A stretch of 33,166 nt of DNA from positions 1-33,166 of IMG/VR virus record IMGVR_UViG_3300045944_000171; one strand, given 5' to 3'. Source of the DNA: a virus. Shown here piece by piece: positions 9,087-24,997 of this stretch. Under the pieces are notes generated by a model. The model was given only the letters and a program-made list of their open reading frames with translations, searched no databases and was not told the DNA's origin. The first letter of the stretch is position 1. Each line of letters starts with the position of its first letter. The position numbers and the translations under genes are program-made.

Positions 9087-9097
9087 GAGCCGCGCCG

Positions 9098-11239
9098 ATG
9101 TCCGTCGCTGATCTGGTCCCCGGCGCCTACTGGGCCGCGATCGGCCTGACCCCCGAGCAGGGTCGCGCCTTCGCCACCGGGCCCGGCGCCTTCGACCTCG
9201 GTGCCGCGACCTGGGGCGTCGACACGATGACGTTCTCCCCGCCGGATTACGGGGAGTACCTGGCGACATCCAATGCCGTCCATGCCTGCGCCACGCTGCG
9301 TGCCCGTCTCCTGGCGCAACTGCCCCTGCGGCTCTACCGCCTGACCGGCGGCGACGAGGGCAAGAATGAGGTGACGCGCGGCGCGCTCTGGCAGTTACTC
9401 CAGAAGGTCAATCCCTACTGGACGCTGCCGCGCCTGGTGCAGATGACCGAGTTGTCGCTGTGCGCCTGGGGGAAAGCCTTCTGGTTTACCGACGAACGCC
9501 GGAGCCCGAACGCGCCGCCGCCCCGTGAGCTCTGGTGGGCCAGGCCCGACCGGGTCAAGGTCGTGCCGCACCCGCAGAACTACGTGAGCCACTTCCTCTA
9601 CGAGCCGGTCAACGGCAGCGAGCCGGTGCGCTTCGAGCCGTGGGAGACGGTCTGGCTGCGCTACCCCAACCCGCTCGAGGAATACGAAGGGCTCTCTCCG
9701 CTCGCCGCGGCGCGCATCGCCGCCGACGTGGCCAGCGCGGCGATGAAGAGCAATCGCAACATCTTCACCAATGGGATGCAGGCCGCTGGCTTCGTCACCA
9801 ACGGCGACAACCGCGTGCCGTTCAGCAAGCAACAGGCGGAGGAGCTGGCCGAGCACCTCGATCGGCGCTTTAAGGGCGTGGACAAAGCCCACCGGGTCGG
9901 CATCTTGCACTTCGACGCGAAGTTTCAATCGGTGGCCATGACCCCCAAAGACGCCGAATTCCTCGGTGCGCTGAAGTGGTCGCTCGAGGACGTCTGCCGC
10001 GCCTACGGGGTGCCGCTCGATCTGATCGGCGGGCAACGGACCTTTGAGAACGTCAACGCCTCGGAAACGATCGTCTGGAACCACACGATCCTGCCCGAAG
10101 CCGCGTTTGTCGCCACCGAACTCACCGAGCAACTGCTGCCGATGTTCGCCGGCGGCCGGGACGGCGCGGACCTGTGCGAGTTCGATCACGCGGCCGTTGA
10201 GGTCCTTAAGGAGGACGAGGCGGCGAAGTGGGAAGTCTGGCGCTCGCAGATCGAGGTCGGCGTCCGCACCCGCAACGAGTGGCGCGATCAGGAAGGGTTG
10301 CCGCCGCTGGCGTGGGGCGAGGACTTCTGGGTCGCCTCCACCCTCACCCCGATCGGCGGGCCGATGCAGGAGGAAGCGGACGCCAAGGCCGAGGCGATGG
10401 CCGAACAGATCGCCGCCGGTCAGCAACAACCGCCGGCGCTGCCGTCCGGGGAGGAACGGTCTATCCGTCTCGTGCGCCTCGCCTACGGCGACCCGGAGCA
10501 CGAGCGGGCATGGCAGCGCTTCGTGGCCCAGACCACGCCACATGAGCAGGCCATCGAGCGCACCGTGCGCGACCTCTTCCGGCGGCAGGAGCGCAGCGTC
10601 CTCGATACGCTCACCGCCCGGTCGGCGCGCTCGCCGGAGGGCGCGGCGCTGGAACCGTTCGACCGCGGCAAGTGGGTCAAGGAGTTCCGCCTGGCCATTC
10701 GCCCGCTGCTTGCCGCGGCCGTGGCCGATGCCGGTACGGCGGCACTTGCCGAGGTGGCGGTCGGCATCGCCTTCGACGTGAGCGACCCCAACGTGGTGCG
10801 CTTCCTCGAGCGGCAGGCGCAGCGCTTCGCCGTGGCGGTCAATGAGACGACCTGGGACCGGCTCAAGGCCGAACTGGTCGAGGGCATCGCCGCCGGCGAG
10901 GGGACCGACGCGCTTGCCGCGCGGGTGCGGCAGGTGATGGGGGTCCGCCTGAGCGACGCCGAACGGATCGCCCGCACGGAGACGACCGGCGCGTTCAACG
11001 GCGGGACCATCGAGTCCTGGCGGCAGAGCGGCGTCGTCAAGGGCAAGACGTGGCTTTCTGCGCTCGACGACCGTGTGCGCGAAACGCATATTGCGGCGCA
11101 TGGGCAGACGGTCGGGCTCGACGAAGATTTCGCCGTTGGCGACGCCACCGGACCGGGGCCGGGGCTGATGAGCACGGCGGCGGAAACGGTCAACTGCCGG
11201 TGCAGTTTGGTTGCGGTGCTGGACGCGGAGGCGGGATGA
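9098..11239 (+). CDS. portal protein fused to a MuF-like minor head domain
   Basis: This 713-residue protein combines two structural proteins that are usually separate. Residues from about 30 to 420 form an HK97-type portal, with the familiar AVHACATLRARLLAQLPLRLYR opening and a DLIGG...NVNASE segment. From about residue 460 a helical linker leads to a MuF/SPP1 gp7-like domain, with RIARTETTGAFN, the WLSALDDRVRETH strand and the terminal NCRCSLV motif. AGGAG lies eight bases before the ATG. The portal forms the dodecameric ring at one head vertex, and MuF proteins act in head morphogenesis or DNA ejection. The fusion would place twelve MuF copies at that vertex. Confidence 0.9.
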   Translation: MSVADLVPGAYWAAIGLTPEQGRAFATGPGAFDLGAATWGVDTMTFSPPDYGEYLATSNAVHACATLRARLLAQLPLRLYRLTGGDEGKNEVTRGALWQLLQKVNPYWTLPRLVQMTELSLCAWGKAFWFTDERRSPNAPPPRELWWARPDRVKVVPHPQNYVSHFLYEPVNGSEPVRFEPWETVWLRYPNPLEEYEGLSPLAAARIAADVASAAMKSNRNIFTNGMQAAGFVTNGDNRVPFSKQQAEELAEHLDRRFKGVDKAHRVGILHFDAKFQSVAMTPKDAEFLGALKWSLEDVCRAYGVPLDLIGGQRTFENVNASETIVWNHTILPEAAFVATELTEQLLPMFAGGRDGADLCEFDHAAVEVLKEDEAAKWEVWRSQIEVGVRTRNEWRDQEGLPPLAWGEDFWVASTLTPIGGPMQEEADAKAEAMAEQIAAGQQQPPALPSGEERSIRLVRLAYGDPEHERAWQRFVAQTTPHEQAIERTVRDLFRRQERSVLDTLTARSARSPEGAALEPFDRGKWVKEFRLAIRPLLAAAVADAGTAALAEVAVGIAFDVSDPNVVRFLERQAQRFAVAVNETTWDRLKAELVEGIAAGEGTDALAARVRQVMGVRLSDAERIARTETTGAFNGGTIESWRQSGVVKGKTWLSALDDRVRETHIAAHGQTVGLDEDFAVGDATGPGPGLMSTAAETVNCRCSLVAVLDAEAG

Positions 11240-11526
11240 TGGCGACGGATCGCTGGGACGCGGCCTGGCTGCGGGAACCGCGCTTCGGCGCGGACGAGCG
11301 GCGTTGGCGCGACGAATCGCTCGCGAACCCCCGCCTCGTGCATCGGGGCGTTGCCGTGAGCGAGGACTGCTGGAGGCGCGGGATGCCGGAGCGGTGGGAC
11401 CGGAGCGGGGCCGAGATGGGCGTACTCTACCTGTTCCAGGCCCTCAAGACGTTGGCGCAGGCGGTCGAGCGCATCGAGGCCAAACTGGACGCCATCGAGC
11501 GTCGGCTGGACGCGGAGGCGGGATGA
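11219..11526 (+). repeat. duplicated 21-bp gene-junction sequence
   Basis: A 21-bp sequence beginning CTGGACGCGGAGGCGGG and ending ATGA occurs exactly at 11219-11239 and 11506-11526. Each copy forms the end of one gene, the ribosome site and the start of the next. The 96-residue gene between them therefore sits as a cassette between direct repeats, and recombination between them would remove it cleanly. Confidence 0.75.
11236..11526 (+). CDS. small head-region protein with coiled coil, 96 aa
   Basis: The ATG at 11236 overlaps the portal stop. The N-terminal half is rich in Arg and Trp (DRWDAAWLREPRFG). The C-terminal 35 residues have a clear heptad pattern, LYLFQALKTLAQAVERIEAK, that suggests a short coiled coil. 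The last residues, LDAEAG, are identical to the portal C-terminus because both genes end in the same 21-bp sequence. Function is unknown; small coiled-coil proteins here sometimes act as scaffold or head accessory factors. Confidence 0.6.
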   Translation: MMATDRWDAAWLREPRFGADERRWRDESLANPRLVHRGVAVSEDCWRRGMPERWDRSGAEMGVLYLFQALKTLAQAVERIEAKLDAIERRLDAEAG

Positions 11527-11744
11527 CGAGCGAATCGCCGGTGCTCGCCGACCTCGACCCGGCGATTGCGGCGGCGGTGCAGGCGCTCTACGTCGCGTTG
11601 GCGGGGGCCGTGGTGAGCGGCGACTACCGGACGGCGAAGCGGTTGGAGCTGGACCTTGCGCTGGCGGTCGTCGCGTATGGAGACCGCCGGGTCGAGCGGG
11701 CGCTGGCGGTGGTCGCCGACGTCCTCGCATCGGAGGGAGCATGA
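11523..11744 (+). CDS. hypothetical small protein, 73 aa
   Basis: The ATG at 11523 overlaps the previous stop, and GGAGGCGGG lies just upstream. The product is Ala- and Val-rich and mostly helical (AAAVQALYVALAGAVVSGDY), then basic and acidic. The middle segment is moderately hydrophobic but too interrupted for a confident membrane span. No family is recognised. Confidence 0.55.
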   Translation: MTSESPVLADLDPAIAAAVQALYVALAGAVVSGDYRTAKRLELDLALAVVAYGDRRVERALAVVADVLASEGA

Positions 11745-11968
11745 CGAGCGCGTCGTGTTTCCGGAAACCGCCCCCCGGATTCCGTGACACCGGCGACGGC
11801 TTCGAGCGCGACCGATCACTCGCCCCCCCTGTCGCCGTCGTCGCCACCCAGCCGACCGACCAGCGGGCCCTCTTGCTCGCCCGGCGTCAGGCCCTCATCA
11901 TCGAGTTGGGCGCGATCGAGGAGTACCTGGGGATGGAGCGGAGCATCATGCCGAGGAGGAAGCGGTGA
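11741..11968 (+). CDS. hypothetical small protein, 75 aa
   Basis: The gene starts at an ATGA overlap behind GGAGGGAG. The N-terminal half is rich in Pro, Phe and Asp and is probably disordered. The C-terminal half is one helix (RALLLARRQALIIELGAIEEY) ending in the basic tail PRRKR. No family is recognised. Its gene overlaps the DNA-binding protein gene by GTGA. Confidence 0.55.
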   Translation: MTSASCFRKPPPGFRDTGDGFERDRSLAPPVAVVATQPTDQRALLLARRQALIIELGAIEEYLGMERSIMPRRKR

Positions 11969-12189
11969 AGAGAGCGGGGTATGTCACGGTAGCCGAGGCG
12001 GCTGAGCGTGTCGGCGTATCCGAACCGACGATGCGGCGACGCATCCGCAATGGGGCGATTCCGGCGTACCGCGACCCAGCCGACCATCGTCGGCGCTTGG
12101 TCAAGGTCCGGGAGGTCGACGCCTATTTCGGCGACCATCATCGGTTGGAGCCCGACCAGTCGCCAATTCGTTTGGTCGAGGTTGCCTAG
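11965..12189 (+). CDS. excisionase/MerR-like helix-turn-helix protein
   Basis: This 74-residue protein is a winged helix-turn-helix of the excisionase or MerR-like type. The pattern YVTVAEAAERVGVSEPTMRRR (residues 6-26), then RNGAIPAYRDP and RRRLVKVREVDAYF, gives the helix-turn-helix, the wing and the closing strand. The GTG start at 11965 overlaps the prior stop, with GAGGAGGA upstream. It sits immediately before a dyad and promoter-like element, so it may be an architectural or regulatory protein acting there. No integrase is visible, which makes an excisionase role less likely. Confidence 0.8.
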   Translation: MKRAGYVTVAEAAERVGVSEPTMRRRIRNGAIPAYRDPADHRRRLVKVREVDAYFGDHHRLEPDQSPIRLVEVA

Positions 12190-12212
12190 CCCTAGCCCTG
12201 TGCTAGACTAGC
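12182..12212 (+). promoter_or_regulatory. candidate promoter with overlapping operator dyad
   Basis: A TTGCCT (12182-12187) and TAGACT (12204-12209) pair with 16-bp spacing, plus an upstream TG, resembles an extended -10 sigma70-type promoter. The -10 lies inside the perfect dyad GCTAG-A-CTAGC (12202-12212). Four CTAG tetranucleotides fall within 26 bases (12186-12211). A protein bound to the dyad would block the promoter. The related sequence TGCTACACTA occurs at 28275-28266 on the minus strand. Confidence 0.45.
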
Positions 12213-12294
12213 GTCCAACCGAATAGCCGCCGAGTCTCTTAGCGGCCCGTCTCCCAGCTAGCGCACACGCGCCGGCCGGAAGGCGGGCCGTTTT
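12213..12294 (+). ncRNA. structured leader or small RNA, copy A
   Basis: Downstream of the -10-like TAGACT is an approximately 80-nt structured stretch ending in a strong hairpin and TTTT (12291-12294). The outer stem is CGGCCCG (12243-12249) with CGGGCCG (12284-12290). Inside the 34-nt loop a second stem pairs 12257-12264 with 12269-12276, with one A-C mismatch, around an ACAC loop. A related element lies at 20709-20804. It could be a small RNA with its own terminator, or an attenuator in the leader of the protease-capsid operon. The gap 12190-12314 has no convincing gene. Confidence 0.5.
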
Positions 12295-12314
12295 GCGTGT
12301 CCGGAGATGCGCCG

Positions 12315-13451
12315 ATGCCCGACTACCTGCGCGCCTTCTGCGAACGGAAGGCCGGCACGCCCGAGGATGGCCCGCTGCGCTTCGTCGCCTCGACCGAGGG
12401 GGTCAAGCGCGACGGCCTCAATCTGGCCATGTCCCAGTGGGACCTGTCCAACTTTCGCAAGAATCCGGTCGTGCTCTGGGCACACGCTTACGGCGGCTTC
12501 GGTGGCCCGCCGCCGGCGCCGATCGGCCGCGCCGACGTCACGGTCGAGGGAAAGCAACTTCTCGCTGACATCACCTTTGACCAGGGCGACGAGTTCGCTC
12601 GCTCCATCGAGCGCAAATACCGCCAGGGCTTCCTTCATGCCGTCTCGGTCGGCTGGGATCCCAGGGCGCCGGCCGGCAAGTCGCTCCACGAGGTCCGCGC
12701 CGAGGAAGTCCGGCTCGACCTGCTCGATGTCTCGGCGGTGCCGGTGCCCGGCGATCCGGACGCGTTGATCCAGCGGCAGCAGCGGGCGCTGTCGATCATG
12801 GCGCACGACATCCTGGCCCAACTCGATGAGGACGATGACCCCGGCACGCGTCGGAGTGCCATCCCGCCCCATGCGACCGACCGTGCGGCCGAGACGACGC
12901 CCTATGACGCCGTCGCCGAGGTGGCGCGGATGGAGGGCCAGGCGGCGCTCCGTCGCGCCCATGCCTGGGTGAATGTCGATGCCGACCCGGACACCCGGAG
13001 CGCCTACAAGGCGCCGCACCACGACGCGGACGGTCAGGCCGTCTGGTTGGCGATCGCCGCGGAGATGTCGCGGCTCTTCGTCAGCCCGGCTCAGATCCCG
13101 GACGCCGACCGGCGGGGCGTGTACGCGCACCTGGCCCGGCATTATCGCCAGTTCGACCGCGAACCCCCGGAGTTCCGGGCGACGGCCGAGCTCACGCCAT
13201 TGGAGGCGCGCGAACTCCGCGGGCTCTTCCTCGAAGGCGAGCCCGACCTGCTGCCGGATCTGTTCCCGACGGAGCGGGCCGGGGCGGTCCTCTCCCGGCA
13301 AAACCGCGAGGACCTGCAACGGATCGCCGACCTGGCGACCGGCATCCTGGCCCGCGCCGGCGGGCAAGACACCACCGCTGAGGATGACGAGGAGGCGACG
13401 CTACGCCTCCTGGCCGCCGCCATGCGCGGCTACGGAGTCACCACGACATGA
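12315..13451 (+). CDS. HK97-type prohead protease with C-terminal extension
   Basis: This 378-residue protein begins with a U35-type prohead serine protease. The catalytic His is probably H57 (VLWAHAYG) and the nucleophile S111 (HAVSVGW). It cleaves capsid precursors during head maturation. ATG 12315 has CGGAGA eight bases upstream; GTG 12297 is less likely. Residues from about 195 to 280 form a second domain with AWVNVDADPDTRSAYKAPHH and GVYAHLARHYRQF, a pattern I recall fused to phage head proteases. The acidic, helical C-terminal part could act as scaffold. It overlaps the capsid gene by ATGA. Confidence 0.87.
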   Translation: MPDYLRAFCERKAGTPEDGPLRFVASTEGVKRDGLNLAMSQWDLSNFRKNPVVLWAHAYGGFGGPPPAPIGRADVTVEGKQLLADITFDQGDEFARSIERKYRQGFLHAVSVGWDPRAPAGKSLHEVRAEEVRLDLLDVSAVPVPGDPDALIQRQQRALSIMAHDILAQLDEDDDPGTRRSAIPPHATDRAAETTPYDAVAEVARMEGQAALRRAHAWVNVDADPDTRSAYKAPHHDADGQAVWLAIAAEMSRLFVSPAQIPDADRRGVYAHLARHYRQFDREPPEFRATAELTPLEARELRGLFLEGEPDLLPDLFPTERAGAVLSRQNREDLQRIADLATGILARAGGQDTTAEDDEEATLRLLAAAMRGYGVTTT

Positions 13452-14902
13452 GCGCCGTTGATACCATCCTGACCGAGGTCAACCAGCGCCTCGCCGCCGT
13501 CGATCAGGCGGTCAGCGAGCAACGCCTGCTCCAGATGTTCAAGGACTTTTTGGGCGACCTGACCGACGACGATCCGATTGTCCGCAAAATGCGCTTCGGC
13601 GCCCGCGAGTCGGTCCTGGTCGGCAGCAAGTACAGTCGGTGGGGTCTGTCGATCTCCGACATCGAGTACCTGCACGACTTCATGCAGGCCCGCCAGCGCG
13701 CCGGCCTCGGGCCCGGTCCCTCGGAGGAACTGACCCGGACCTATAAGTCAGTGTCGGACGCCTACTACATCTCCGAAGACGAGGTCAAGCGCATCGACCG
13801 CCGGGCCATCGACGACCTGTTCCCCCGCGTCCGCAAGGGCGAGGTGAACGCCATCACGCAGATGGAGCGCTATCAGCGGGCGATGGACACCGCCGAGACG
13901 GGCTTCGGCCTGGAAATCATCGGCGCCCAGTACGTCCGCGACCTCTGGGAAGCGGCCCGCGCCGAGTCGCGCGTTTTCAACCTGATCGACACGTTCGAGA
14001 TGACCGACGCCACCGCCTACCTCCCGGTCGAGGTGGACATCCCCGAGCCCCTGTTCGTCGGTGAGTCCACGGCGAATAACTCGTCCAACTACGCCACGGT
14101 CAAGACCGGATCGAACCGCGTGACCGTGTCCGCGAAGAAACTGCTCTGGCATCAGATGTGGTCCCGCGAGCTCGAAGAGGACGCCATCATCCCGTTCGTC
14201 CCCTTCCTGCGCCGGCAGATGATGCTGGCCCTCGCCCACTACAGTGACGCCATCATCCTCAACGGGGATACCACGAACGCCGGCACCGGCAATATCAACC
14301 TGGATGACGCCGACCCGGCGGACACCAAATATTACCTGGCCTTCGACGGCATCCGGCACGGCGCCATCGTGGACAACACCGCCAACCACGTCACCACCGG
14401 CGGGGCGATCACCCTCAATCAGTTGCGCGACCTGCGCGGGCTGATGATCGACCGCACCAACCTGGTTGACTGGGGCCACCCGACGAACATGGAAGACCTC
14501 GTGTTCGTCACCGACCCGGAGACGGGCGACCGGATCGCCTTGCTCGATGACGTGATCAAGGCCAAGCAGATGAACGGCAGCAACGCGATGTTGCTCGCCG
14601 GCGAGGTTGGGCGCATCGTCGGGCATCCGGTCATCACCAGCATGGCGGTCAGCAAGACGGAGGCAGACGGCAAGGTCAGCACGACCGGGTCGAATAACAC
14701 GCTCGGCCAGGTCGTCGCCTTCAATCGCCGCGGCTTCAAGGTTGGCTGGCGGCGGCGGATTCGGGTCGAGATGGAGGCCCTGCCGGCGACGGATCAGAGC
14801 CGTATAGTTTATAGCGCAAGGCTTGGTTTCGGACGGTTTACCCCCACGGGCGCCGCGTCCGGGATCGAAGCGGTTGCCGTCCAGTCGAATATCAGCCTGT
14901 AG
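13448..14902 (+). CDS. major capsid protein, HK97 fold
   Basis: This 484-residue protein is the major head subunit. Position after the protease, length, and sequence all fit: an N-terminal helical delta-like region (first 120 residues), then ETGFGLEIIGAQYVRDLWEA at the start of the folded core, a mid-region with KLLWHQMWSRELEED, an alpha-helix with MMLALAHYSDAIILNGD, and a C-terminal strand region. The N-terminal segment is long and may be removed by the protease encoded upstream. The start overlaps the protease stop (ATGA). Confidence 0.88.
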   Translation: MSAVDTILTEVNQRLAAVDQAVSEQRLLQMFKDFLGDLTDDDPIVRKMRFGARESVLVGSKYSRWGLSISDIEYLHDFMQARQRAGLGPGPSEELTRTYKSVSDAYYISEDEVKRIDRRAIDDLFPRVRKGEVNAITQMERYQRAMDTAETGFGLEIIGAQYVRDLWEAARAESRVFNLIDTFEMTDATAYLPVEVDIPEPLFVGESTANNSSNYATVKTGSNRVTVSAKKLLWHQMWSRELEEDAIIPFVPFLRRQMMLALAHYSDAIILNGDTTNAGTGNINLDDADPADTKYYLAFDGIRHGAIVDNTANHVTTGGAITLNQLRDLRGLMIDRTNLVDWGHPTNMEDLVFVTDPETGDRIALLDDVIKAKQMNGSNAMLLAGEVGRIVGHPVITSMAVSKTEADGKVSTTGSNNTLGQVVAFNRRGFKVGWRRRIRVEMEALPATDQSRIVYSARLGFGRFTPTGAASGIEAVAVQSNISL

Positions 14903-14932
14903 GCGCGGTGAGCCCGCAGAGGAGTAACCGCC

Positions 14933-15370
14933 ATGGCAGGCGCACTCAGTCGCGACACCAGCCGGGGGCAACTCGTGCCCCTGGTGTTCGGACAGACCGA
15001 TCTGGCGGCGACGCAGACCGACGCCCAGCTCGTCGTCGCCATCGCCGAATCGGCCCAGGCCAATACCGGCTATGTCATGCCCTTCGATGGCAACGTCGTC
15101 GCCGTGTCCTGGGATTTCACCGCGGCGCCGACCGCAGGCACCGGCACCATCGGGGCGACGATCAATGGCACCGAGGATGCCGACACCCGCTCCTCGATCA
15201 CGGTGGACTCGGCCACCACGACCGGGCGGCTGCGGGTGCAGCGGGGCAAGGCGGTGTTCACCGCCGGGCAGTCCATCGGCGTCGAGTTGACGACGGACGG
15301 CAGCTTTGCGCCGATCACGGCTGACCTGTCGGTCGTCGTCTGGGTGCTGCTGGACGTAGACGGGATCTGA
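14933..15370 (+). CDS. putative capsid decoration / adhesin-domain protein
   Basis: This 145-residue protein follows the capsid gene, with AGAGGAG eight bases before its ATG. It is rich in Thr, Ala and Val and looks all-beta. Residues 43-140 (GYVMPFDGNVVAVSW, then TAGTGTIGATING) share a pattern with the protein at 31649-32335 (FRMPVAGEVVAGFLM, then TAGTATLRVRLDG), so a jelly-roll-like module may be used on both head and tail. Head decoration is inferred from position. Confidence 0.6.
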   Translation: MAGALSRDTSRGQLVPLVFGQTDLAATQTDAQLVVAIAESAQANTGYVMPFDGNVVAVSWDFTAAPTAGTGTIGATINGTEDADTRSSITVDSATTTGRLRVQRGKAVFTAGQSIGVELTTDGSFAPITADLSVVVWVLLDVDGI

Positions 15371-15372
15371 GC

Positions 15373-15648
15373 ATGGCATCACAGCGCTACCGCTTCCTCG
15401 CCAACTACCGTAACGGCGATCTCGCCTATACGAAGGACCAGGTGACGGAGTTCGATCCGGACTTTGCTGCTTGGCTGAACCGTGACGCGCCGGGCTGCGT
15501 CGAGCCGGTGGACGAGGCGGCGGAACGGGCCAAGCTCGAGGAAGAGATCCTGGCGAAGGCCAAGACCGCCGAGGAGAAGGCGCGGGCCAAGGACGCGCCG
15601 ACGGCCGACCGGATGCAGAAGGCGCCGACCGCCAAGCGCGAGGGGTGA
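15373..15648 (+). CDS. small post-capsid protein, 91 aa
   Basis: The N-terminal 50 residues follow a pattern frequently seen in small phage proteins near the capsid gene: a strand (YRFLANYRNGDLAYTKDQ), then EFDPDFAAWLNRDAPGCVEPV. The C-terminal 40 residues are a highly charged helix rich in Glu, Lys and Ala. Function is unknown. No strong ribosome site precedes the ATG, and coupling to the previous gene two bases upstream is likely. Confidence 0.65.
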   Translation: MASQRYRFLANYRNGDLAYTKDQVTEFDPDFAAWLNRDAPGCVEPVDEAAERAKLEEEILAKAKTAEEKARAKDAPTADRMQKAPTAKREG

Positions 15649-15652
15649 GCCG

Positions 15653-16021
15653 ATGGCGCGCATCGGGACCGAAACCATCACGGTCGCCACCACCGGCGCG
15701 GACGGCAGCGCTACCGGCAGCGGCGCCTTCAAGGCGTTTGCCGGATTCCTCCTCGACGTCTACCTCGCCTACACCACCGAGCCGGCGACGACCGACGTCA
15801 CGATCGCGCATACGCAGCCGACGCTCGGCAACATCCTGGTCGTCACGAGCAGCGCCACCGACGCGCTCTATCCGGTGCGGGTGCAGGCGAAGGACGCCGC
15901 CGGCGCGGCGATCACCGGGGTCTACGACTACCTCCCGGTCGACGGCATCCTGACCATGGCGGTGGCGCAGGGGGACGATCCCGGCAGCGTCACCGCCACG
16001 ATTCGTTACCTCGAGCCCTGA
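15653..16021 (+). CDS. hypothetical beta-rich structural protein, 122 aa
   Basis: The ATG at 15653 follows GAGGGG with a seven-base gap. The protein is Thr- and Ala-rich with alternating hydrophobic residues typical of beta-sandwich structural proteins (ETITVATTGADGSATGSG). It includes a DVTIAHTQPTLGNILVV segment. No named family is recognised. Location among decoration-like genes suggests a virion surface component. Confidence 0.6.
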   Translation: MARIGTETITVATTGADGSATGSGAFKAFAGFLLDVYLAYTTEPATTDVTIAHTQPTLGNILVVTSSATDALYPVRVQAKDAAGAAITGVYDYLPVDGILTMAVAQGDDPGSVTATIRYLEP

Positions 16022-16023
16022 CG

Positions 16024-16149
16024 ATGGGCGCGCTCTGGCTGAGCATGGGGTTGGGGATTGGGCGTCCGCTGGTTGCGGGCGGTGGCGAGCCGCCGGGACC
16101 AGGCGAGACACCGCAGTACCTGCTGCTTGCCCTCGTCTGGTACGTCTAG
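16024..16149 (+). CDS. small hydrophobic protein, 41 aa
   Basis: A short frame between two structural genes encodes MGALWLSMGLGIGRP, then a Gly/Pro-rich turn and a hydrophobic end, YLLLALVWYV. The stop codon contributes to the ribosome site of the next gene (TAGGAG). The start lies two bases after the preceding stop, consistent with translational coupling. It may be a membrane or virion peptide. Its short length makes the call tentative. Confidence 0.45.
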   Translation: MGALWLSMGLGIGRPLVAGGGEPPGPGETPQYLLLALVWYV

Positions 16150-16158
16150 GAGTCGATT

Positions 16159-16818
16159 ATGTCTGACAATGTTGCCGTCACCGCTGGCGCTGGCACGACG
16201 ATCGCGACCGACCTGATCGGCGGTGTCCACCACCAGCGGGTCAAGGCGGGCTGGGGGGCGGAAGGCGCGTTCAATGACACGAGCGCGACCGATCCGCTCC
16301 CCGTTGACATCATCAGCAGTGCCACCCTCACCCTCTCCGGCGAGGATCACATCGGCCAGGTCGGCGGGGCGGTCGTCGTCGTTCGTCCGGCCATTACCGT
16401 GACGGCTGGGGCCTACTCCGCGAACGATGTTGTCGGTGGGGAGTTGACGCTGACCGGTGCCATGCGCGTCACCTCTGGTTCTGGCGTTCTGCAATCGTTG
16501 GTCATCCACGATGCGGCGGCGCAGAATAAACAGTACGACCTCTACATCTTCGACTCGGCCCCAGGGGCGGCGCTCGCGGACAACGATGCCTTTGCCTGGA
16601 CGGCGGGCGACGAAGACAAGCTCCTCACGGTGATCCGCGTGGCGGCATCGGACTGGTTCACGGCGGCCGGGGATGGCTTCTGTGTCCTGCGCAACCTCGG
16701 CGCGGCCGTCAAGGGCAACGGCGGCACGGCGCTCTACCTCTACATCGTCGCCGTGACCGCGCCGACTTATGCCGCTACGACCGACCTGACGCTGGCGTTG
16801 ACGTTCTTGCAAGATTAG
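16159..16818 (+). CDS. beta-rich virion surface protein, 219 aa
   Basis: The ATG at 16159 follows AGGAG by six bases. The first 70 residues resemble a short attachment segment (DLIGGVHHQRVKAGWG). Residues 75-219 form a beta-rich domain including GAYSANDVVGGELTL and LQSLVIHDAAAQNKQYDLYIF, a pattern I have seen in phage decoration or fibre-associated proteins. It likely sits on the virion surface. The specific role is unknown. Confidence 0.6.
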   Translation: MSDNVAVTAGAGTTIATDLIGGVHHQRVKAGWGAEGAFNDTSATDPLPVDIISSATLTLSGEDHIGQVGGAVVVVRPAITVTAGAYSANDVVGGELTLTGAMRVTSGSGVLQSLVIHDAAAQNKQYDLYIFDSAPGAALADNDAFAWTAGDEDKLLTVIRVAASDWFTAAGDGFCVLRNLGAAVKGNGGTALYLYIVAVTAPTYAATTDLTLALTFLQD

Positions 16819-16827
16819 GAGCCGCCA

Positions 16828-17475
16828 ATGCCCATGCCACGCCAGATCGGCACCGGGCGGACGCTCCTCTTTGCGCCGTCTACCGCCGCCCCGATCACCT
16901 TCGAGACGGCCGGGACGGCGTATCAAGCGGCGGGAACGTCGCACGCCATCGTCGCGCCGTCCGGCATCGTAGACGGCAATCTGCTGGTCTGCATCTTCAC
17001 CCACACCAGCACACCGACCATCACCCCGCCGGGCAGCTGGGACGATGAGTCCGGATTCAATTTCGTCGTCGTCGCTGGAATAACGATTCGCGTCTATACG
17101 AAGATTGCCTCCGGCGAGTCAGGGAACTATACCTTCAGCACCAGTGTTTCCTCGACGGTGCGGGCGCAGATTTACCGCCTGTCCGGGGCCGATACCGCCG
17201 ATCGGATCGGGGCGATCGGCACCGCGGCCACCGGGTCCGGCACGACCGCGACCGCGACCGCGATCACCGCCGAGACGACGGGGCTGCTGATCGGCGTCGT
17301 GGCGATCTCCGGCACGCGCGACTTCTCCAGCGCCGTGATGACGGAGACGGCCGATTCGGACAGCACGGCGTTCTATTACCAGAACCTCAGCGCGACGGGC
17401 GATACGGGCACGCGCGCCTTCACCATCAGCTCCTCGGCGGCCTGGGGGTGTGTGCTCTTCGAGGTGCGGGACTGA
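16828..17475 (+). CDS. beta-sandwich surface protein, 215 aa
   Basis: The ATG at 16828 is preceded by AGGAG. The protein is rich in Ser, Thr, Gly and Ala, with regular alternating strands typical of phage adhesin or carbohydrate-binding beta-sandwiches (DGNLLVCIFTHTSTPTITPPG, then GSWDDES). It has few charged helical residues. Its stop overlaps the start of the large tailspike-like gene (TGATG), so the two are probably made together. A role in attachment is inferred from composition and neighbour. Confidence 0.55.
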   Translation: MPMPRQIGTGRTLLFAPSTAAPITFETAGTAYQAAGTSHAIVAPSGIVDGNLLVCIFTHTSTPTITPPGSWDDESGFNFVVVAGITIRVYTKIASGESGNYTFSTSVSSTVRAQIYRLSGADTADRIGAIGTAATGSGTTATATAITAETTGLLIGVVAISGTRDFSSAVMTETADSDSTAFYYQNLSATGDTGTRAFTISSSAAWGCVLFEVRD

Positions 17476-20135
17476 TGACCGCACGCATCCGCTTCGGGCT
17501 GCATGACGGCGAGGCGGTGGTCCGGGCCCGCACCGCCGGCACACCACCGGATCTCCGTACCGCCTGGGAGCGGTGGTTTCCGACCGGGTGGTGGCTCTCC
17601 GTCGGTGGGCTCGATTACCGGGCGATCGGCAATACCACCGGCACGACCAACGCCCTCACCGGCCGGACCTTCTACGACCATCCCGAGCAGGGCATTCGCG
17701 CGCTGGCGGTGGATGGCCTGGCCGATGGCATCACCCCGTACCTCCATGTCCAGAATGACGACGGGGCGGACTGGGACGCCGAGCAGGAACTCGGCCCGGC
17801 CGTCTGGCACTACACCGACTGCGCCAATCGGATCGACGCGGGGAACACGCAGGGCATCGCCGTCGAATGGCTCAACAACGGGGCGGTCGATCCAGACGAC
17901 TACGCGACCGCGCTCTCCATCGCGCAGGACACGATGGACTTCCTCGACGGCCACGTCGATCAGGCGCTCGCCTGGCGCATCTCCGACGATGTGCAAATCG
18001 CCATGCCTGGCGGTGCGCAGAAAGTGGTCACGATGGCGCGGGCGATTCAGGACGCCGATCCCCACCACCGCCCGTGCCCGATCGTCGTGGTCGATCCGGA
18101 TGTCTGGGACCTCTACCCGGCCGGCGATCTGCGCCTCGCCATCACCTACCGCTATCCGCACGCTTATCGCTTTGGCGACCCGCAGCCCGAGGGGGATTAT
18201 CACAACTGGGTCGGGCTCGCGGACTACGGTGGCGGCGGCGAAGATTGGGTCGATGCCCTGCGTGAGTGGACGAACGAACTCCCGGCCGGCGTCCCCTGCT
18301 GGCTGATCCTGCAAGCCTTCCCCTCCGAGGCGCAGCCGACGACCTACCGTCCGCCAACGACGCGGGAGTTACGCAAGTCCTTCTGGATCGCGGTGGGCGA
18401 GGGGTTCAAGGGCATCTGGTGGTTCACCGCGAACGCCAACCCGGACGAGTCGGTCGGCTGGACCGGGATCAACGACTACGCGTTGCAACCAGCATCCGAC
18501 GTGATTGGCGAGTTGCACCGGCGACTCACCCCGGAGATCCGGGCGCGGCTTTTGCGGGCTGATCGGGTGGCCGATCTCTTCGCCGTGACGGGCGGGGCCA
18601 CCAGCGGCTATATCGTGGACTACGATGCCGCCTACGTCAGCACGCTCGAGGACCGGCACGATGGCACGCGCTACGCGGTCGTCTGCAACCACAACACCGC
18701 CACCGAGAATGTCACTATCAGTAGCGCCACCCTGACCGGGGCGATCGAGAACCTGGAAACCGGGGTGCGGACCACGCTGCCGGCGACCGTGAGCCTGCCG
18801 GCCCTGGACGGCAGCATCTACCGCTTCGTCGTGCCGGAGCCGGGGGTGCCCCGCGCGGTGCTCGATGCCTCCCTGAGCCCGGAGGAGTGGTGGGCACGCT
18901 GCTGGGCCAATCCCGACTCGCCGTACTACGTGAGCTACGACGCGATCGTGCTGCACCCCCGCACCGTCAACGTCGGGACGTTGGATGATCTCCAAACCGT
19001 CCTCGACGCCGCGCCGGACAACACGACGCTGGTCTTGCCGGCGGACTACACGTTTGCCGACCTCAACATCACCGGTCGCAACGGCATTCACATTGTCGCC
19101 GCCGACCCGGACAACCCGTGGGTCTGCACCGGCTACGTCGGGATGTATGCGAATGCCACGGCAGAATCCAGTATTGCGTCGTGGACGACCGCTGTGCTCT
19201 CAGACAGTCCGGCCGGGTCGGAGGCGTTGTTCCTCAACCCGCCGCGCGATTTCATTCTCCGGGACGGCGCGTTTACCCATCCGGGGCCGTTCATCGCTCG
19301 CCCGCCGATTCACCTCCAGGGCGTCGCGGATGTCCTGATCGAGCGCGTAGTGATGACCGGTCACGTCTGCCCCGACGCTGGCGGCGGCGGCACCGGGGCA
19401 CCGGTCGGGCATCCAGGGCTCGTGACCGGGGCCGGCGGCGTCGAGAACGTCGTGGTCCGGGAATCGACGCTGACCGGGTTCACCAACCCTGGCGGGTTCG
19501 GCTACCCCACGCCGGTCTATTGGGATGGGCCGCGTGGCTGCGTGTTCGTGGACAACACGACGAACGGCAAGTGGTTCAACCGCACCGGCCCGCTCTGGTT
19601 GACCAACGACGATTTTACGCTCGACTACGACGGGGATCGCACGATCCACCGCTGGCGCGAAGAGCGCTCGGCGCAGTTCAACGCCAGTGTGGGCAACACC
19701 TGTTCCGGAAACTCGTTCTTTATGAGCGTCACCGGCGGGTACAATCTCATTGCGGAGAACGACATCAGCGGATTATCCGGCGGCAACCTGGCGACCGTCA
19801 TCGAGATCGTCGCCCGCTGCTCCCGGCTCCACGAGCACCCCTATAACCACCGCTACTTCCACTACGACACGATCGTCCGGGACAACATCATTCACGGCAA
19901 CGTGCTGGAGTCGGTGATCGAGCATCAGCCCGACCCCGGCTTTGTCTGCTTCGACCAGGGCGATCCCCGCAACACCGCGGCCTACGCCTGGCGGAGCCGC
20001 GTCGGCCGAACGACGCTGACCGGGACGCGCGTGACCGGCACTGTTGCCGACTGGATCATTGACGAGCCGTCGTCGTCGGCGGCGAGCGACGGCCCGAACG
20101 TCGAGAGCGGCAATCAGGAGAACTGGGTGCCGTAG
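17475..20135 (+). CDS. large tailspike-like protein: glycosidase-like barrel plus beta-helix
   Basis: This 886-residue protein appears to have two glycan-active parts. Residues of about 30-370 resemble a TIM-barrel glycoside hydrolase: GITPYLHVQNDDG, WHYTDCANRID, GIAVEWLNN, an AITYRYPHAYR strand, and TRELRKSFWIAVGEGFKGIW. A small beta domain follows at about 370-460. From about 500 to the end, repeated short strands (TLDDLQTVLDAAPDNTTLVL, then ITGRNGIHIVAADP, DVLIERVVMTG, ENVVVRESTLTG, YNLIAENDISG, TIVRDNIIHG) look like a right-handed parallel beta-helix of the pectate-lyase type. It likely binds and degrades host surface polysaccharide. Its place between capsid and connector genes is unusual. 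Confidence 0.7.
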   Translation: MTARIRFGLHDGEAVVRARTAGTPPDLRTAWERWFPTGWWLSVGGLDYRAIGNTTGTTNALTGRTFYDHPEQGIRALAVDGLADGITPYLHVQNDDGADWDAEQELGPAVWHYTDCANRIDAGNTQGIAVEWLNNGAVDPDDYATALSIAQDTMDFLDGHVDQALAWRISDDVQIAMPGGAQKVVTMARAIQDADPHHRPCPIVVVDPDVWDLYPAGDLRLAITYRYPHAYRFGDPQPEGDYHNWVGLADYGGGGEDWVDALREWTNELPAGVPCWLILQAFPSEAQPTTYRPPTTRELRKSFWIAVGEGFKGIWWFTANANPDESVGWTGINDYALQPASDVIGELHRRLTPEIRARLLRADRVADLFAVTGGATSGYIVDYDAAYVSTLEDRHDGTRYAVVCNHNTATENVTISSATLTGAIENLETGVRTTLPATVSLPALDGSIYRFVVPEPGVPRAVLDASLSPEEWWARCWANPDSPYYVSYDAIVLHPRTVNVGTLDDLQTVLDAAPDNTTLVLPADYTFADLNITGRNGIHIVAADPDNPWVCTGYVGMYANATAESSIASWTTAVLSDSPAGSEALFLNPPRDFILRDGAFTHPGPFIARPPIHLQGVADVLIERVVMTGHVCPDAGGGGTGAPVGHPGLVTGAGGVENVVVRESTLTGFTNPGGFGYPTPVYWDGPRGCVFVDNTTNGKWFNRTGPLWLTNDDFTLDYDGDRTIHRWREERSAQFNASVGNTCSGNSFFMSVTGGYNLIAENDISGLSGGNLATVIEIVARCSRLHEHPYNHRYFHYDTIVRDNIIHGNVLESVIEHQPDPGFVCFDQGDPRNTAAYAWRSRVGRTTLTGTRVTGTVADWIIDEPSSSAASDGPNVESGNQENWVP

Positions 20136-20137
20136 CC

Positions 20138-20365
20138 ATGAGCGCGCAACCCTGTACCTACTGCGGTATCCCCACCGAGGTTCGGCGCCGCCGGCGCCCG
20201 GTTTGCCGGCGGCGCCGCTGCCTCGTCAAGTGGGTGGTGTCCGTCCGGGCGGTTCGGGTTGGCGCGTCGTCGTGGCTGCTGATCCAGCCGAAGACCGGGG
20301 GGGGCGTGACGGCGATTCGGGTCTGCAAACGGGGGCACGCATGGCACGCGGCACGATCCGCCTGA
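20138..20365 (+). CDS. small Cys/Arg-rich zinc-ribbon-like protein (tentative)
   Basis: This 75-residue frame starts two bases after the tailspike stop. It has CTYC near the start, two more Cys in an Arg-rich segment, and CKRGHAWH near the end, a CxxGH pattern seen in zinc knuckles. The Arg runs are, however, encoded by the two arms of a perfect 13-bp inverted repeat (20183-20217), so the DNA structure may be the selected feature rather than the peptide. The last 25 bases overlap the next gene. Confidence 0.4.
   Translation: MSAQPCTYCGIPTEVRRRRRPVCRRRRCLVKWVVSVRAVRVGASSWLLIQPKTGGGVTAIRVCKRGHAWHAARSA
20183..20217 (+). repeat. perfect 13-bp inverted repeat (hairpin)
   Basis: CGGCGCCGCCGGC (20183-20195) and its exact reverse complement (20205-20217) flank the nine-base loop GCCCGGTTT. 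The predicted RNA hairpin is extremely stable. No T run follows, so it is not a standard intrinsic terminator. It lies between the tailspike gene and the BppU-like gene and could limit read-through, pause ribosomes or stabilise the upstream transcript. Confidence 0.7.
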
Positions 20366-20703
20366 TTCGCGGCGACGACCACAGCGAAACGCGCGCGTTC
20401 GACCAGGACGACGGGTCGGACTATGACCTGACGGACGCCGCGGTCTGGTTTACGCTCAAGGCCAATCCGGGCGACGCCGACGATGACGCGATCCTGCAAC
20501 ACGTTTCCGGCGACGGCAGCCTGACAATCACGGACCCCCTGACGGGAGCCGTCTCGCACGTCATCAGCGCCGCGGAGACGGCGGTCCTGGTCCTGGGGGT
20601 CTATCGCTACGACTACCAACTCGTCGCGGCGGACGGCACGGTCGCAACGCTCGAACGGGGCCGCGCCGAGGTGACGGGCGACGTGACGCTGAGTATCGCC
20701 TAG
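20341..20703 (+). CDS. BppU N-terminal-like (Ig-like) phage protein
   Basis: This 120-residue protein matches the pattern of the BppU N-terminal Ig-like domain used in phage baseplate and surface proteins: GTIRLIRGDDHSETRAF, DLTDAAVWFTLKA, then VLVLGVYRYDYQLV and TLERGRAEVTGDVTLS. Such domains anchor receptor-binding parts to the virion. The ATG at 20341 has only a weak G-rich ribosome site. The gene closes the adhesin block that starts after the capsid gene. Confidence 0.65.
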   Translation: MARGTIRLIRGDDHSETRAFDQDDGSDYDLTDAAVWFTLKANPGDADDDAILQHVSGDGSLTITDPLTGAVSHVISAAETAVLVLGVYRYDYQLVAADGTVATLERGRAEVTGDVTLSIA

Positions 20704-20708
20704 CATCC

Positions 20709-20804
20709 GTTATACTGTGGCCAGAACCGAAGAACCGCCGGGAATGGCTCAGCGGGCCGGACTCGATCAGCGCATACGCGCCGGTCGATAGACGGCCCGC
20801 TTTT
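20709..20804 (+). ncRNA. structured leader or small RNA, copy B
   Basis: A TATACT hexamer (20711-20716) aligns with the TAGACT of copy A and is followed at the same distance by a similar CCGCCG stretch. A nine-bp outer stem pairs AGCGGGCCG (20751-20759) with CGGCCCGCT (20793-20801), followed by TTT. The inner stem pairs 20764-20773 with 20778-20787, with a G-U pair and one A-C mismatch, around an ATAC loop. The outer arms are the reverse of copy A (left arm of A equals right arm of B), so pairing is conserved while sequence is not. No -35 box is clear. The gap 20704-20824 has no gene. Confidence 0.5.
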
Positions 20805-20824
20805 GTTGCGTAAGGCGAGACACG

Positions 20825-21439
20825 ATGCCGGTCGCGACCGTCTACGCCAGCGTCGAGGAGTTGAAGTCGCGCCTCGACATCACCACGTCTGACGCGGCGC
20901 GTGACGCCGACCTCCTCGACTGCCTCCTTGCCGCGTCGCGCACGGTGGACGGACTGACCGTCCGCACCTTCGGGCAGTCCGCGAGCGAGGCACGGACCTT
21001 CACCGCCGGCTTCGCCGATCTCCTCCCCGTCGATGATCTGGTGAGCCTGACGACGGTCGAAGCGGATGAGGATGGCGACCGGGTTTATGAGACATCGTGG
21101 AGCGCCACGGACTACGACCTCGACCCGGAGAACGCCGCGGCGCGGGGTGAACCGTACACATCGCTGCGCGTCACGCCGATGGGGACGCGCAACTTCCCGG
21201 CCGGCCGGCGCGGCGTGCGCGTCACCGGCGTCTGGGGCTGGCCGGCGGTGCCGGAGGCGGTGCGGGAGGCAACGCTGGTCCTGGCGATCCGCCTCTTCAA
21301 ACGACGCGACGCCCCGCTCGGAGTGATCGCTGTCGGGGATGCGAGCGCGGCGATTCGGCTGCCGGCGGTCGATCCGGAAGCGGCCCTGATGCTGGCGCCC
21401 TACCGGCGCCTCGTGGCCTGGGGGGGCGAGCGTGGCTGA
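20825..21439 (+). CDS. head-tail connector (gp6-like)
   Basis: This 204-residue protein fits the head-completion connector that binds below the portal. The start pattern VYASVEELKSRLDITTSDAA, a helical core with DADLLDCLLAASRTVDGL, and a C-terminal helix after REATLVLAIRLFKRRDAPLG are typical of the gp6/gp15-like family. The ATG follows the structured element B by 20 bases. Its end overlaps the next gene's GTG start. Confidence 0.75.
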   Translation: MPVATVYASVEELKSRLDITTSDAARDADLLDCLLAASRTVDGLTVRTFGQSASEARTFTAGFADLLPVDDLVSLTTVEADEDGDRVYETSWSATDYDLDPENAAARGEPYTSLRVTPMGTRNFPAGRRGVRVTGVWGWPAVPEAVREATLVLAIRLFKRRDAPLGVIAVGDASAAIRLPAVDPEAALMLAPYRRLVAWGGERG

Positions 21440-21929
21440 CTTCCGCGTCATCGTCAACGATGGCGGCCTGAGCCGGCGCTATGCCGGAGCGGATCGCATC
21501 GTCGGTGAGGAGTTGACGCGCGCCACCGATCGCAACACCATCGCCGGGCAGGGGCGCTCGCGCACCCTGGCGCATGACGCCGTTGACACCAGTCGCTATC
21601 GCAACTCGATCGCCTACAAACCGGCGGTCTATGCCGGCCGGGTGGCGCGCGGCTCCTGGGGGACGAATCTCGCCTACGCGCCGTTTATCCGTTTCGGGCG
21701 ACGGGCCGGGGCGCCACCGCCACCGCCGGGAGCGCTCCTGGGCTGGCTGCGCCGGCACGGTATTCCGGAGTCCGCCGAGTTCGCGGTAGCACAGGCCATC
21801 GCGCGGCGCGGCATCCCGGCGCGCGACCATTTCCTGCCGGCATTGCGCCAGTTGGCGCCGACATTCCGGCGCGAGTACCAGGCGGCGGCGCGGCGCATCG
21901 TGGCGCGTCTCACCGGCGGGGGGCGCTGA
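21432..21929 (+). CDS. HK97 gp10-like tail completion protein
   Basis: This 165-residue protein resembles HK97 gp10-like proteins that sit at the head-tail junction. The pattern includes an N-terminal helix-rich part, HDAVDTSRYRNSIAYKP, GRVARGSWGTNLAYAPFIRFGR and a C-terminal helix with RDHFLPALRQL. The GTG start at 21432 follows a G-rich site (GGGGGGCGAG) within the end of the connector gene. Order in the operon supports the call. Confidence 0.7.
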   Translation: MADFRVIVNDGGLSRRYAGADRIVGEELTRATDRNTIAGQGRSRTLAHDAVDTSRYRNSIAYKPAVYAGRVARGSWGTNLAYAPFIRFGRRAGAPPPPPGALLGWLRRHGIPESAEFAVAQAIARRGIPARDHFLPALRQLAPTFRREYQAAARRIVARLTGGGR

Positions 21930-22369
21930 TGGACCCGCCCACCGTGCCGGCGCGCATCGCCTACTGGGCCACACGGGGCACCGGCCTGCGCGAGGCGCAG
22001 TATCCGGTCACGGCCACCTACGCCACACCGGCACTCCTGGTGGTCTGGGCCGATGCGGAGATTCAGCACACCTCGGAGCAGTACTGGCTCATGACGCTTG
22101 AGGGCGTCCTGGTGGCGCAGCGGGCCGGCAATACCGTGGTGGACGTGCGCGCCGCCGATGCCCTGATCGCGCCGTTGGTCGATCGGTTTCGCGCTACGCA
22201 GGGCAACGAAGCGCATCACCTGACGCATCCGACCGAAGACGGGCACGTTGATTTCTGCCGGGTGGTGCGGGCGCGGCCGATGTGGTTCGGGGAGGGGGAG
22301 AGCGCCGAATACGGGGCGCTCTTCACGTTCTCGGTGAAGCTGCGGCGCATTCCCGCCGCGGTCAATTAG
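21929..22369 (+). CDS. tail terminator-like protein
   Basis: This 146-residue protein starts at an ATG sharing a base with the upstream stop (TGATG). Position directly before the tail tube gene, and an alpha/beta pattern with a long helix (DALIAPLVDRFRAT) flanked by strands and ending in FTFSVKLRR, fit a tail terminator that caps the tube. Sequence resemblance is weak, so the call rests mostly on gene order. Confidence 0.6.
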   Translation: MDPPTVPARIAYWATRGTGLREAQYPVTATYATPALLVVWADAEIQHTSEQYWLMTLEGVLVAQRAGNTVVDVRAADALIAPLVDRFRATQGNEAHHLTHPTEDGHVDFCRVVRARPMWFGEGESAEYGALFTFSVKLRRIPAAVN

Positions 22370-22377
22370 GAGGAGGC

Positions 22378-22593
22378 ATGAGCGAGTCCAGGGTGCTCTA
22401 CCGCTACACCGGCGACGGGCGCGCCTGGTTCGCCGGCGTCCCGAAGCGCGACCTGACCGCCTCAGATGTGGCGGCGCTTACACCGGAGGCCCGTCGCAAC
22501 GTCGAAGCGGGGACGCTCTACCAACCGGTCGCGAAGAAAACCGACAAGTCCGACAAGCCGGTTGCCCCGGCGGCACCTGACGTCAAGGAGTAA
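22378..22593 (+). CDS. hypothetical small protein before the tail tube gene, 71 aa
   Basis: The ATG at 22378 has a strong AGGAGGAGG site. The first 45 residues form a compact fold-like stretch (RVLYRYTGDGRAWFAGVPKRD, with LTPEARRNVEAG), and the last 20 are Lys/Pro/Ala-rich and likely disordered. Small proteins with similar starts occur near structural genes of many phages; the function is not known. Confidence 0.6.
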   Translation: MSESRVLYRYTGDGRAWFAGVPKRDLTASDVAALTPEARRNVEAGTLYQPVAKKTDKSDKPVAPAAPDVKE

Positions 22594-22599
22594 GCGGCG

Positions 22600-23850
22600 A
22601 TGAGTGACCTTGTAATCGCCAATGACAGGCCCCTCGTCGTCACCTACGTGGGGAAGGAAACCACCAGGGGGACACTGGTGGTCCCGACCGTCAAGTGGTA
22701 CGGCGACATGCGCTTGCAGCGAAGCCAGCCGTTTGCCGAGCGGCCCGCCTACAACGGGACCTTTTTCGGCGACGTGGATTTCGTGCGGGGCGCCGTCGAG
22801 GTGACGGGCAACGCCTCCTACGTGGCCACGTACGAGGACTGGCTCGACTATGCGCGCATGATTGTCGCCGGCGGCGGCACGGGTGTGACGGACGGCGGCA
22901 GCCCCGCCGCCTTCACCCACACCAAGAAACCGTCCGGCACTGCGGACGACCTGGATACCCTGAGTTGTCAGTACGGCTTCCCCCATAAGCCGTACGAGTC
23001 AAGCATGGTCTTCGGCACCGAGATGACGATTCGGGCGGACATCGACGATCCGGCCGCCTGCTGGATGGTGGACATCCCGACCGTCATGGCCCGGAGCATG
23101 GATCATGTCAACGTCGGTGAGCACACCGCCGCCGGCACGCATAGCGCGACGACCGTCCAGGCGGCGGCGCTCAGCTTCACCGCCGACGAGTACAACGGCG
23201 GGGTGATCTGGCTGGTCAAGGCCGGCGGCACGGTGCAGGTGCGGTCGATCTCCGATACCACGACCGACACGATCACGGTCGCGACCGCCTGGGATTCCAA
23301 CCCCGTGGATGGCGATACGTTCATCCTCGTCGACGCGCTGCAAGCCGGCATCGCCGATCGCGAGCGTGAGGTGATCGACGGACCCGGTACCGATATCTGG
23401 ATCGACCCGGCGACCGGCACGGTCGGCACGACCCACATTGACGAGTTGGGGCTGGCCATCTCCTTCAACTGCACCTACCGCAACAACGCCTACACCAAGC
23501 GGGCGCTGAGTAACGTCAACGAGGCGTCCACCAAACTCGGCCGCGGCTTCGCCAAGGTCCTGTTCAGTGTCCGGATGGAAGACGAAAGCCCGATCATCTG
23601 GGAGTACTGGAAGGACAAGACGGAGCTGCAAATCCGCGTCCAGCAGACCGGCGCGATCATTCACGACGCCGTGACCAGCCGCGCCCGCATCGACATCTTC
23701 CGGGCGGTGGTGGACGGCTACACCGAGGACGACCGCAACAGCAACATCACGAAGACGTGGAATTTCGTGGGGCTGCTCGATAGCAGTGAGGCGGCGCCGA
23801 TCGAGTACGAGGGCATCAACGACCTGACGACGTTGCCGCTGGGAGCCTAG
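22600..23850 (+). CDS. major tail tube protein
   Basis: This 416-residue protein is placed and built as the tail tube subunit, upstream of the frameshifted chaperone and the tape measure. AAGGAG lies eight bases before the ATG. Strands such as VDFVRGAVEVTGNASYVATYED and FSVRMEDESPIIWEYWKDKTEL are typical. Residues of about 190-245 form an inserted beta-module (DEYNGGVIWLVKAGGTVQVRS, then DTITVATAWDSNPVDGDTFIL) that recurs in the distal tail protein downstream. Tube proteins often carry such surface-exposed add-on domains. Confidence 0.75.
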   Translation: MSDLVIANDRPLVVTYVGKETTRGTLVVPTVKWYGDMRLQRSQPFAERPAYNGTFFGDVDFVRGAVEVTGNASYVATYEDWLDYARMIVAGGGTGVTDGGSPAAFTHTKKPSGTADDLDTLSCQYGFPHKPYESSMVFGTEMTIRADIDDPAACWMVDIPTVMARSMDHVNVGEHTAAGTHSATTVQAAALSFTADEYNGGVIWLVKAGGTVQVRSISDTTTDTITVATAWDSNPVDGDTFILVDALQAGIADREREVIDGPGTDIWIDPATGTVGTTHIDELGLAISFNCTYRNNAYTKRALSNVNEASTKLGRGFAKVLFSVRMEDESPIIWEYWKDKTELQIRVQQTGAIIHDAVTSRARIDIFRAVVDGYTEDDRNSNITKTWNFVGLLDSSEAAPIEYEGINDLTTLPLGA

Positions 23851-23853
23851 CCC

Positions 23854-24901: not shown

Positions 24902-24997
24902 TGGGTTGACTCCTCTCCTGAGTCGATCGGGTGCCGTGGCCGGGGTGTTTGCCGCACCGCCGGCCCTTATGCGTTCGGCGCGGAAGGATAACAGACC

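Follow-up and report, generated by a model that had tools for sequence, protein, structure and literature searches.

Two related elements, A and B, stand directly before two virion gene modules of an uncultivated phage, and the reading that we favor, with a probability of about 0.6, is that each is a cis-acting promoter-leader-terminator cassette, i.e., a transcription attenuator, for a late virion module. The elements share one anatomy, they recur before virion genes in other phages with the hairpin sequence exchanged and a hairpin retained, and their promoter and start match those found before host leader RNAs. The window analyzed is the whole IMG/VR virus record, 33,166 bases in length.

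Anatomy of elements A and B

An earlier sequence-only reading had described two related elements at these places, and both are present (Table 1). Their layout is the same: a -10 hexamer, 6-8 nt, AACCGAA at the predicted start, a hairpin, a U-tract and then the start of a gene. With 77% mean column identity in a MAFFT alignment, A and B are, as judged from their sequences, diverged copies of one another. The details of that reading were also borne out, namely the -10-like TANACT followed by CCGCCG 23 and 24 bases later, and, in both copies, a U-tract preceded by an outer stem within which a second stem (GCGC/GCGC) is nested, its 4-nt loop next to an A-C mismatch. Its description of the elements as the only two sizeable gaps of the head region is about right, the other apparent gaps (16022-16158 and 20136-20340) being occupied by small ORFs.

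Table 1. Features of elements A and B and of the adjoining genes (window coordinates).
Feature	Position	Strand	Evidence
Small HTH_17 protein, ends 11 nt before extended -10 of A	11965..12189	+	PF12728, 9.1e-11
Element A	12201-12294		sequence reading
Weak -35-like hexamer TTGCCT, 16 nt 5' of -10, A	12182..12187	+	sequence reading
Extended -10 TGCTAGACT, A	12201..12209	+	sequence reading; compare majority form TGCTAnAnT, 29 members
-10 TAGACT, A	12204-12209	+	sequence reading
Conserved predicted transcript start CAACCGAATAG, A	12216..12226	+	alignment; same motif at host leader RNA 5' ends
Terminator-like hairpin, A	12241..12292	+	-38.3 kcal/mol, z -5.3; compensatory pairs
U-tract 3' of hairpin, A	12291..12294	+	sequence; T-runs after hairpins in other members too
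Head maturation protease, first capsid-module gene	12315..13451	+	PHROG phrog_11321, phrog_4523, phrog_80
Element B	20709-20804		sequence reading
-10 hexamer TATACT, B	20711..20716	+	sequence reading; covariance model match
Predicted transcript start AGAACCGAAGAA, B	20723..20734	+	sequence reading, alignment
Terminator-like hairpin, B	20751..20801	+	-36.0 kcal/mol, z -6.6; compensatory pairs
U-tract, B	20801..20804	+	sequence reading
Head-tail adaptor/connector, first gene 3' of B	20825..21439	+	phrog_442, 1.2e-21

The promoters of A and B are predicted by comparison with other members of the family described below. Element A has an extended (TGn) -10; its -35-like hexamer is not kept in other members, in which an extended -10 mostly occurs instead. 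A stock promoter and terminator scan of positions 8000-27000 returned sites no more than expected; the case rests on the comparative evidence, which supports the proposed RNA of ~80 nt with predicted promoter and terminator features of its own. The order promoter, leader, terminator, gene, as in an attenuator, was found in A, B and the other members, as was the anatomy of an intrinsic terminator, a G+C-rich hairpin followed by a U-rich tract. Only four U make up the short U-tract of either element (UUUUG).

In both elements the gene starts ~20 nt past the U-tract, which leaves no room for another promoter, so that no polymerase coming from upstream can reach the gene without crossing the hairpin. 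For the protease, the probable start is the ATG at 12315, with GGAG at 12303-12306, rather than the GTG at 12297; the start was moved because homologues align from that methionine.

An ordinary intergenic terminator of the upstream operon would have the same intrinsic-terminator anatomy, with the promoter-like motif incidental, and the elements do begin right after upstream stop codons. We consider this quite unlikely: promoter and start motif precede the hairpin in fixed order, the same promoter and start mark host leader RNAs, and the downstream genes would be left without a promoter of their own.

Folding and compensatory change

None of 200 dinucleotide shuffles was as stable as the hairpin core of either element. 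When A and B were aligned with a third copy from another phage (L077), 96.5% of the pair cells were standard pairs, and six pairs differed, three through change of both partners and three through change of one; with the partner slid by 1-3 columns, no pair was changed on both sides. The proposal of a structured RNA is supported by the two-sided changes and by the folding energies, with covariation that is modest for three sequences (19 of 500 shuffles reach the observed level). The related claim, that the two copies have exchanged their stem arms, stands for the compensatory changes, while the exchange itself comes down to two differing pairs of the outer stems, a C-G flipped to G-C and a G-U replaced by G-C; the arms look exchanged because the flip lies within a near-palindromic stem.

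Searches of Rfam, both at the gathering threshold and at E up to 5, assigned no family to A or B, and neither contains a known aptamer or specifier domain of the riboswitch or T-box kind. A single hairpin is conserved; in some members smaller ones are also predicted 5' of it, but not throughout the family.

A simple GC-rich hairpin that stabilizes the module mRNA from its 5' UTR, or acts there as a translation element and not as a terminator, would explain part of these data, including the strong hairpin 15-30 nt 5' of the start codon in many members. We judge this explanation rather improbable, since hairpins of unrelated sequence are followed by T-runs, which a pure stabilizer would not need and which are longer in several members (e.g., L161, L216 and L434).

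The family in other phages

A covariance model built from A and B, a search that the sequence-only reading had suggested, matched L077/L078, L039/L043 (two copies) and L016, the last of these weakly. The capsid proteins of these contigs share only 54-61% identity. The matches in L077, L039 and L016 lie before the protease, and two more contigs, L003 and L004, joined the family when the corresponding bases of other relatives were read. In all of these contigs a -10, usually preceded by TGn, is followed after 6-9 nt by AACYGA or AACTCA; next come a leader that varies and a G+C-rich hairpin unrelated in sequence, then a T-run and the gene start. L039 carries one copy before the protease and one before the major tail protein, and L016 one before the protease and one, with the variant start CAATTAGA, before the connector. 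In L611, from the protease-relative set, the start is also variant (TATACT...AACAACGATAG) and the layout unchanged.

Motif searches of viral contigs that used DNA only found the element 5' of genes for scaffold, protease/capsid, connector and major tail proteins. These included Gp20-type scaffold proteins (L434, L476 and L486), a related scaffold (L501), a scaffold by sequence (L468), protease or protease/capsid genes (L427/L464, L229 and L245) and several small unclassified genes; four further pattern members (L505, L519, L522 and L547) are probably due to chance. In total, the same architecture with unrelated hairpin sequences was observed in about 17 other viral contigs, where the gene 3' of the element encodes a protease, scaffold, capsid, connector or major tail protein. 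In most phages whose capsid or protease is related, the element is missing. A scan of viral contigs for the shared loop AGCGCAYACGCGCYGG gave, among the matches listed, no new member except one chance locus, and comparison of element A with phages by blastn gave short chance matches only.

The phages have in common the promoter, ~10 bases at the predicted transcript start, (C)ACAACTGAATA, the U-tract and a location immediately 5' of a virion gene. Their hairpins and mid-leader regions show no sequence relationship. Among 29 members the majority -10 form is TGCTAnAnT and the start-core consensus ACAACYGAATA, a conservation inflated by the recruitment of most members by pattern. Since the architecture is kept with unrelated hairpin sequences, the hairpin appears to act as a terminator. 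By itself it fits a plain intrinsic terminator without loop conservation, an outcome that the sequence-only reading had named as counting against its proposal; this description does not extend to the whole element.

The roles proposed in that reading fare differently against this pattern of conservation. The attenuator before two modules is retained. A released RNA of ~80 nt that acts in trans as a phage small RNA, and lies before virion genes by chance, would account for the predicted promoter and terminator and for two related copies in one genome; it is nevertheless an unlikely explanation, for no conserved RNA sequence is left to pair or bind in trans and conservation lies in the location directly 5' of a virion gene. 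A packaging or head-assembly RNA, suggested by the adjoining head genes, is highly improbable: the element is absent from many relatives that share capsid and portal, it also precedes major tail and unclassified small genes, and here too there is no conserved RNA sequence.

The association of motif and hairpin was assessed at sites in viral contigs where TGnTAnnnT is followed by the start motif. At a GC content of 0.5 or more, a downstream hairpin with T-run was found at 15 of 31 such sites versus 42 of 750 other TGnTAnnnT sites (p 1.7e-10), and at lower GC at 10 of 148 versus 87 of 5270 (p 2.8e-4). Because these loci had been fetched partly by the motif, a position-based test was added, in which 67 non-redundant regions just before protease relatives were compared with control windows from the same contigs. 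Without motif selection, a hairpin with T-run occurred in 13 of the 67 regions versus 6 of 312 control windows (p 6.5e-7), and promoter/start together with hairpin in 5 of 67 versus 0 of 312 (p 1.5e-4), figures that the query protease alignment, built from element-carrying members, may slightly favor.

Two peculiar loci were noted among these contigs. L259 (JAJVIE010000006.1, 34,857 b) is phage-like, carries the element before its protease and is binned as Omnitrophota; its presence in a MAG of this unexpected phylum is possibly a binning error. In L215:9680-9870 (-), and also in L276, the promoter/start TGCTAGAATAGGTGCAACTGAATAA is followed by a single sequence resembling a type I-E CRISPR repeat, GTTTTCCCCACACACGTGGGGGTGATTC, after which come a terminator and a small ORF; the repeat is possibly a solitary unit as in RNA-based anti-CRISPRs, or else a plain hairpin.

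The same promoter and start before host leader RNAs

In Chloroflexota, riboswitches, T-boxes and an L10-type leader come immediately after the promoter with (C)ACAACTGAAT, an arrangement also seen twice in Actinomycetota. Terminator-type regulation is usual for these leader classes. The pattern TGNTANANT-N4-8-CAACTGAAT occurred at seven places in 151 Chloroflexota genomes, with one control hit. Known leader RNAs follow immediately at six of the seven; four of these score above the Rfam cut-offs (two purine riboswitches, a SAM and a c-di-AMP riboswitch) and two below the cut-off (a TPP riboswitch and a T-box). A looser pattern gave ~54 sites in 400 genomes versus ~14 for the reversed pattern, and 30 of these sites included three cobalamin riboswitches, T-boxes, a tRNA, two sites 5' of L10-type leaders, of which one was scored and fell below the cut-off, and plain mRNAs (e.g., L561/L562). 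In 149 Actinomycetota genomes there were three sites, one at a c-di-AMP riboswitch and one at a T-box below the cut-off. ACAAN4ATA stands shortly before the aptamer in 14 of 30 SAM-riboswitch leaders versus 1 of 30 RNase P RNA promoters (p 8.5e-5), and is rarer in T-box leaders (strictly, 1 of 30). These counts and site surveys indicate that the start motif is enriched at regulated leader RNAs and not exclusive to them. Loci with (C)ACAACTGAATA or ACAAN4ATA are L293-L298, L305, L313, L320, L322, L558-L560, L573 and L578-L580 in Chloroflexota, and L549 and L551 in Actinomycetota.

No description of the start motif, or of comparable phage late leaders, was found in the open-licence literature, and a 5'-end signature common to several unrelated host leader classes is apparently undescribed. 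A tentative idea, to which we give a low probability, is that a polymerase-associated factor reads (C)ACAACUGAAUA as the mark of "leader mode" transcripts in Chloroflexota and their neighbors; the phages would then reuse this signal to put their virion modules under this factor.

Two prophage routes to a host gave no link. A link of the Gp20-type scaffold to Chloroflexota prophages came down to one weak match in 350 genomes, and the one strong relative among Chloroflexota prophage proteases, in an Anaerolinea MAG, lacks the element. The assignment of a candidate Chloroflexota host thus rests on the shared leader signature.

Proposed mode of action

Occurrence in unrelated phages, together with a start resembling that of host riboswitches, makes the element look like a transcription brake and not like a free-standing RNA. 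Host RNA polymerase would start a few bases past the -10, either at AACCGAA or immediately 5' of it. The initial ~80 nt would fold into the strong hairpin followed by the U-tract, and a fraction of the polymerases would stop there. Only read-through would transcribe the protease-capsid or connector-tail module, whose start codon follows after ~20 nt, and polymerases from upstream genes would face the same brake. Such read-through, if regulated, might be triggered by a phage antitermination factor or a DNA-binding factor, or the hairpin might simply set a level.

An antiterminator formed by pairing of the leader with the 5' arm of the terminator was suggestive by eye in several members, and was not supported against shuffled leaders (mean z -0.4 in 15 members). 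As no conserved antiterminator pairing came to light in this comparison, a factor would act in trans or the hairpin would set a fixed level. In one phage (L216:7490-7628, minus strand) the terminator loop GATCCGGCTCGC could form 12 bp with bases past the U-run, a possible antiterminator of that phage only.

The HTH_17 protein encoded before element A is a possible regulator. In L016, the same place, directly 5' of the first element and just before position 1972, is taken by a GerE/sigma-region-4-like HTH protein, likewise a regulator candidate only. Between the portal gene and A, 5' of the HTH_17 gene, lies a small RQALIIELGAIEEYLGMERSIMPRRKR-like ORF (11741-11968), relatives of which are recognizable just before the element in L039, L077 and L259. 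In the non-structural part of the genome, positions 5988-6272 encode a Cro/C1-type HTH protein (HTH_31/HTH_3) that has a short C-terminal CPxCGHRH motif. Just past a primase/helicase-like gene, positions 3209-3306 hold a direct-repeat cluster, ACTAACCTTnCTAACC, with an inverted AAGGTTAGT copy; these repeats are iteron-like and possibly mark a replication origin or an operator.

To our knowledge, little is known of late-gene timing in phages of Chloroflexota and similar uncultivated hosts. A cassette before scaffold, protease/capsid, connector and tail genes provides a concrete control point, and possibly a sequence handle linking metagenomic phages to Chloroflexota-like hosts.

Comparison with known systems

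The elements share their promoter and first transcribed bases with the riboswitch, T-box and L10 leaders of Chloroflexota, and differ from these in having no aptamer or known leader family and a start motif only ~17-20 nt from the hairpin. Resemblance to the Q, put and conAn systems below is one of functional analogy.

The SAS/ESAS of Cluster K mycobacteriophages are also repeated elements with inverted repeats directly 5' of phage genes; the 13-bp SAS lies near start codons and has a proposed translation role, and in the parts of the account drawn on here SAS/ESAS, unlike A and B, show no promoter/terminator order (PMC3203893). In the conjugation operons of the pLS20 type, conAn mediates processive antitermination, whereby a promoter-proximal RNA and a protein license read-through of terminators in large module operons (PMC8955417). 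Here too predicted terminators occur in such operons, but between promoter and first gene, and no conAn1-like protein was identified. The put RNA of HK022, ~70-80 nt in length, is a short structured RNA near a phage promoter, in which two stem-loops of related sequence suppress termination (PMC9378689). A short structured RNA close to a phage promoter is likewise predicted here, with a single hairpin and U-tract, not conserved in sequence between phages, in place of two conserved stem-loops.

In lambdoid phages the late promoter PR' is followed at once by the terminator tR', and late genes need read-through brought about by the antiterminator Q (PMC6606751). The same succession of a late promoter and an intrinsic terminator is predicted here from the bases. 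No match to the Q family was found among the selected window genes scanned, in which HTH proteins were found, and the -10-like element of the early PR' transcript has no counterpart, as ACAACYGAATA contains no hexamer having A2 and T6. Unlike PR'-tR', the arrangement in this phage is a compact cassette of ~100 bp, repeated before separate modules.
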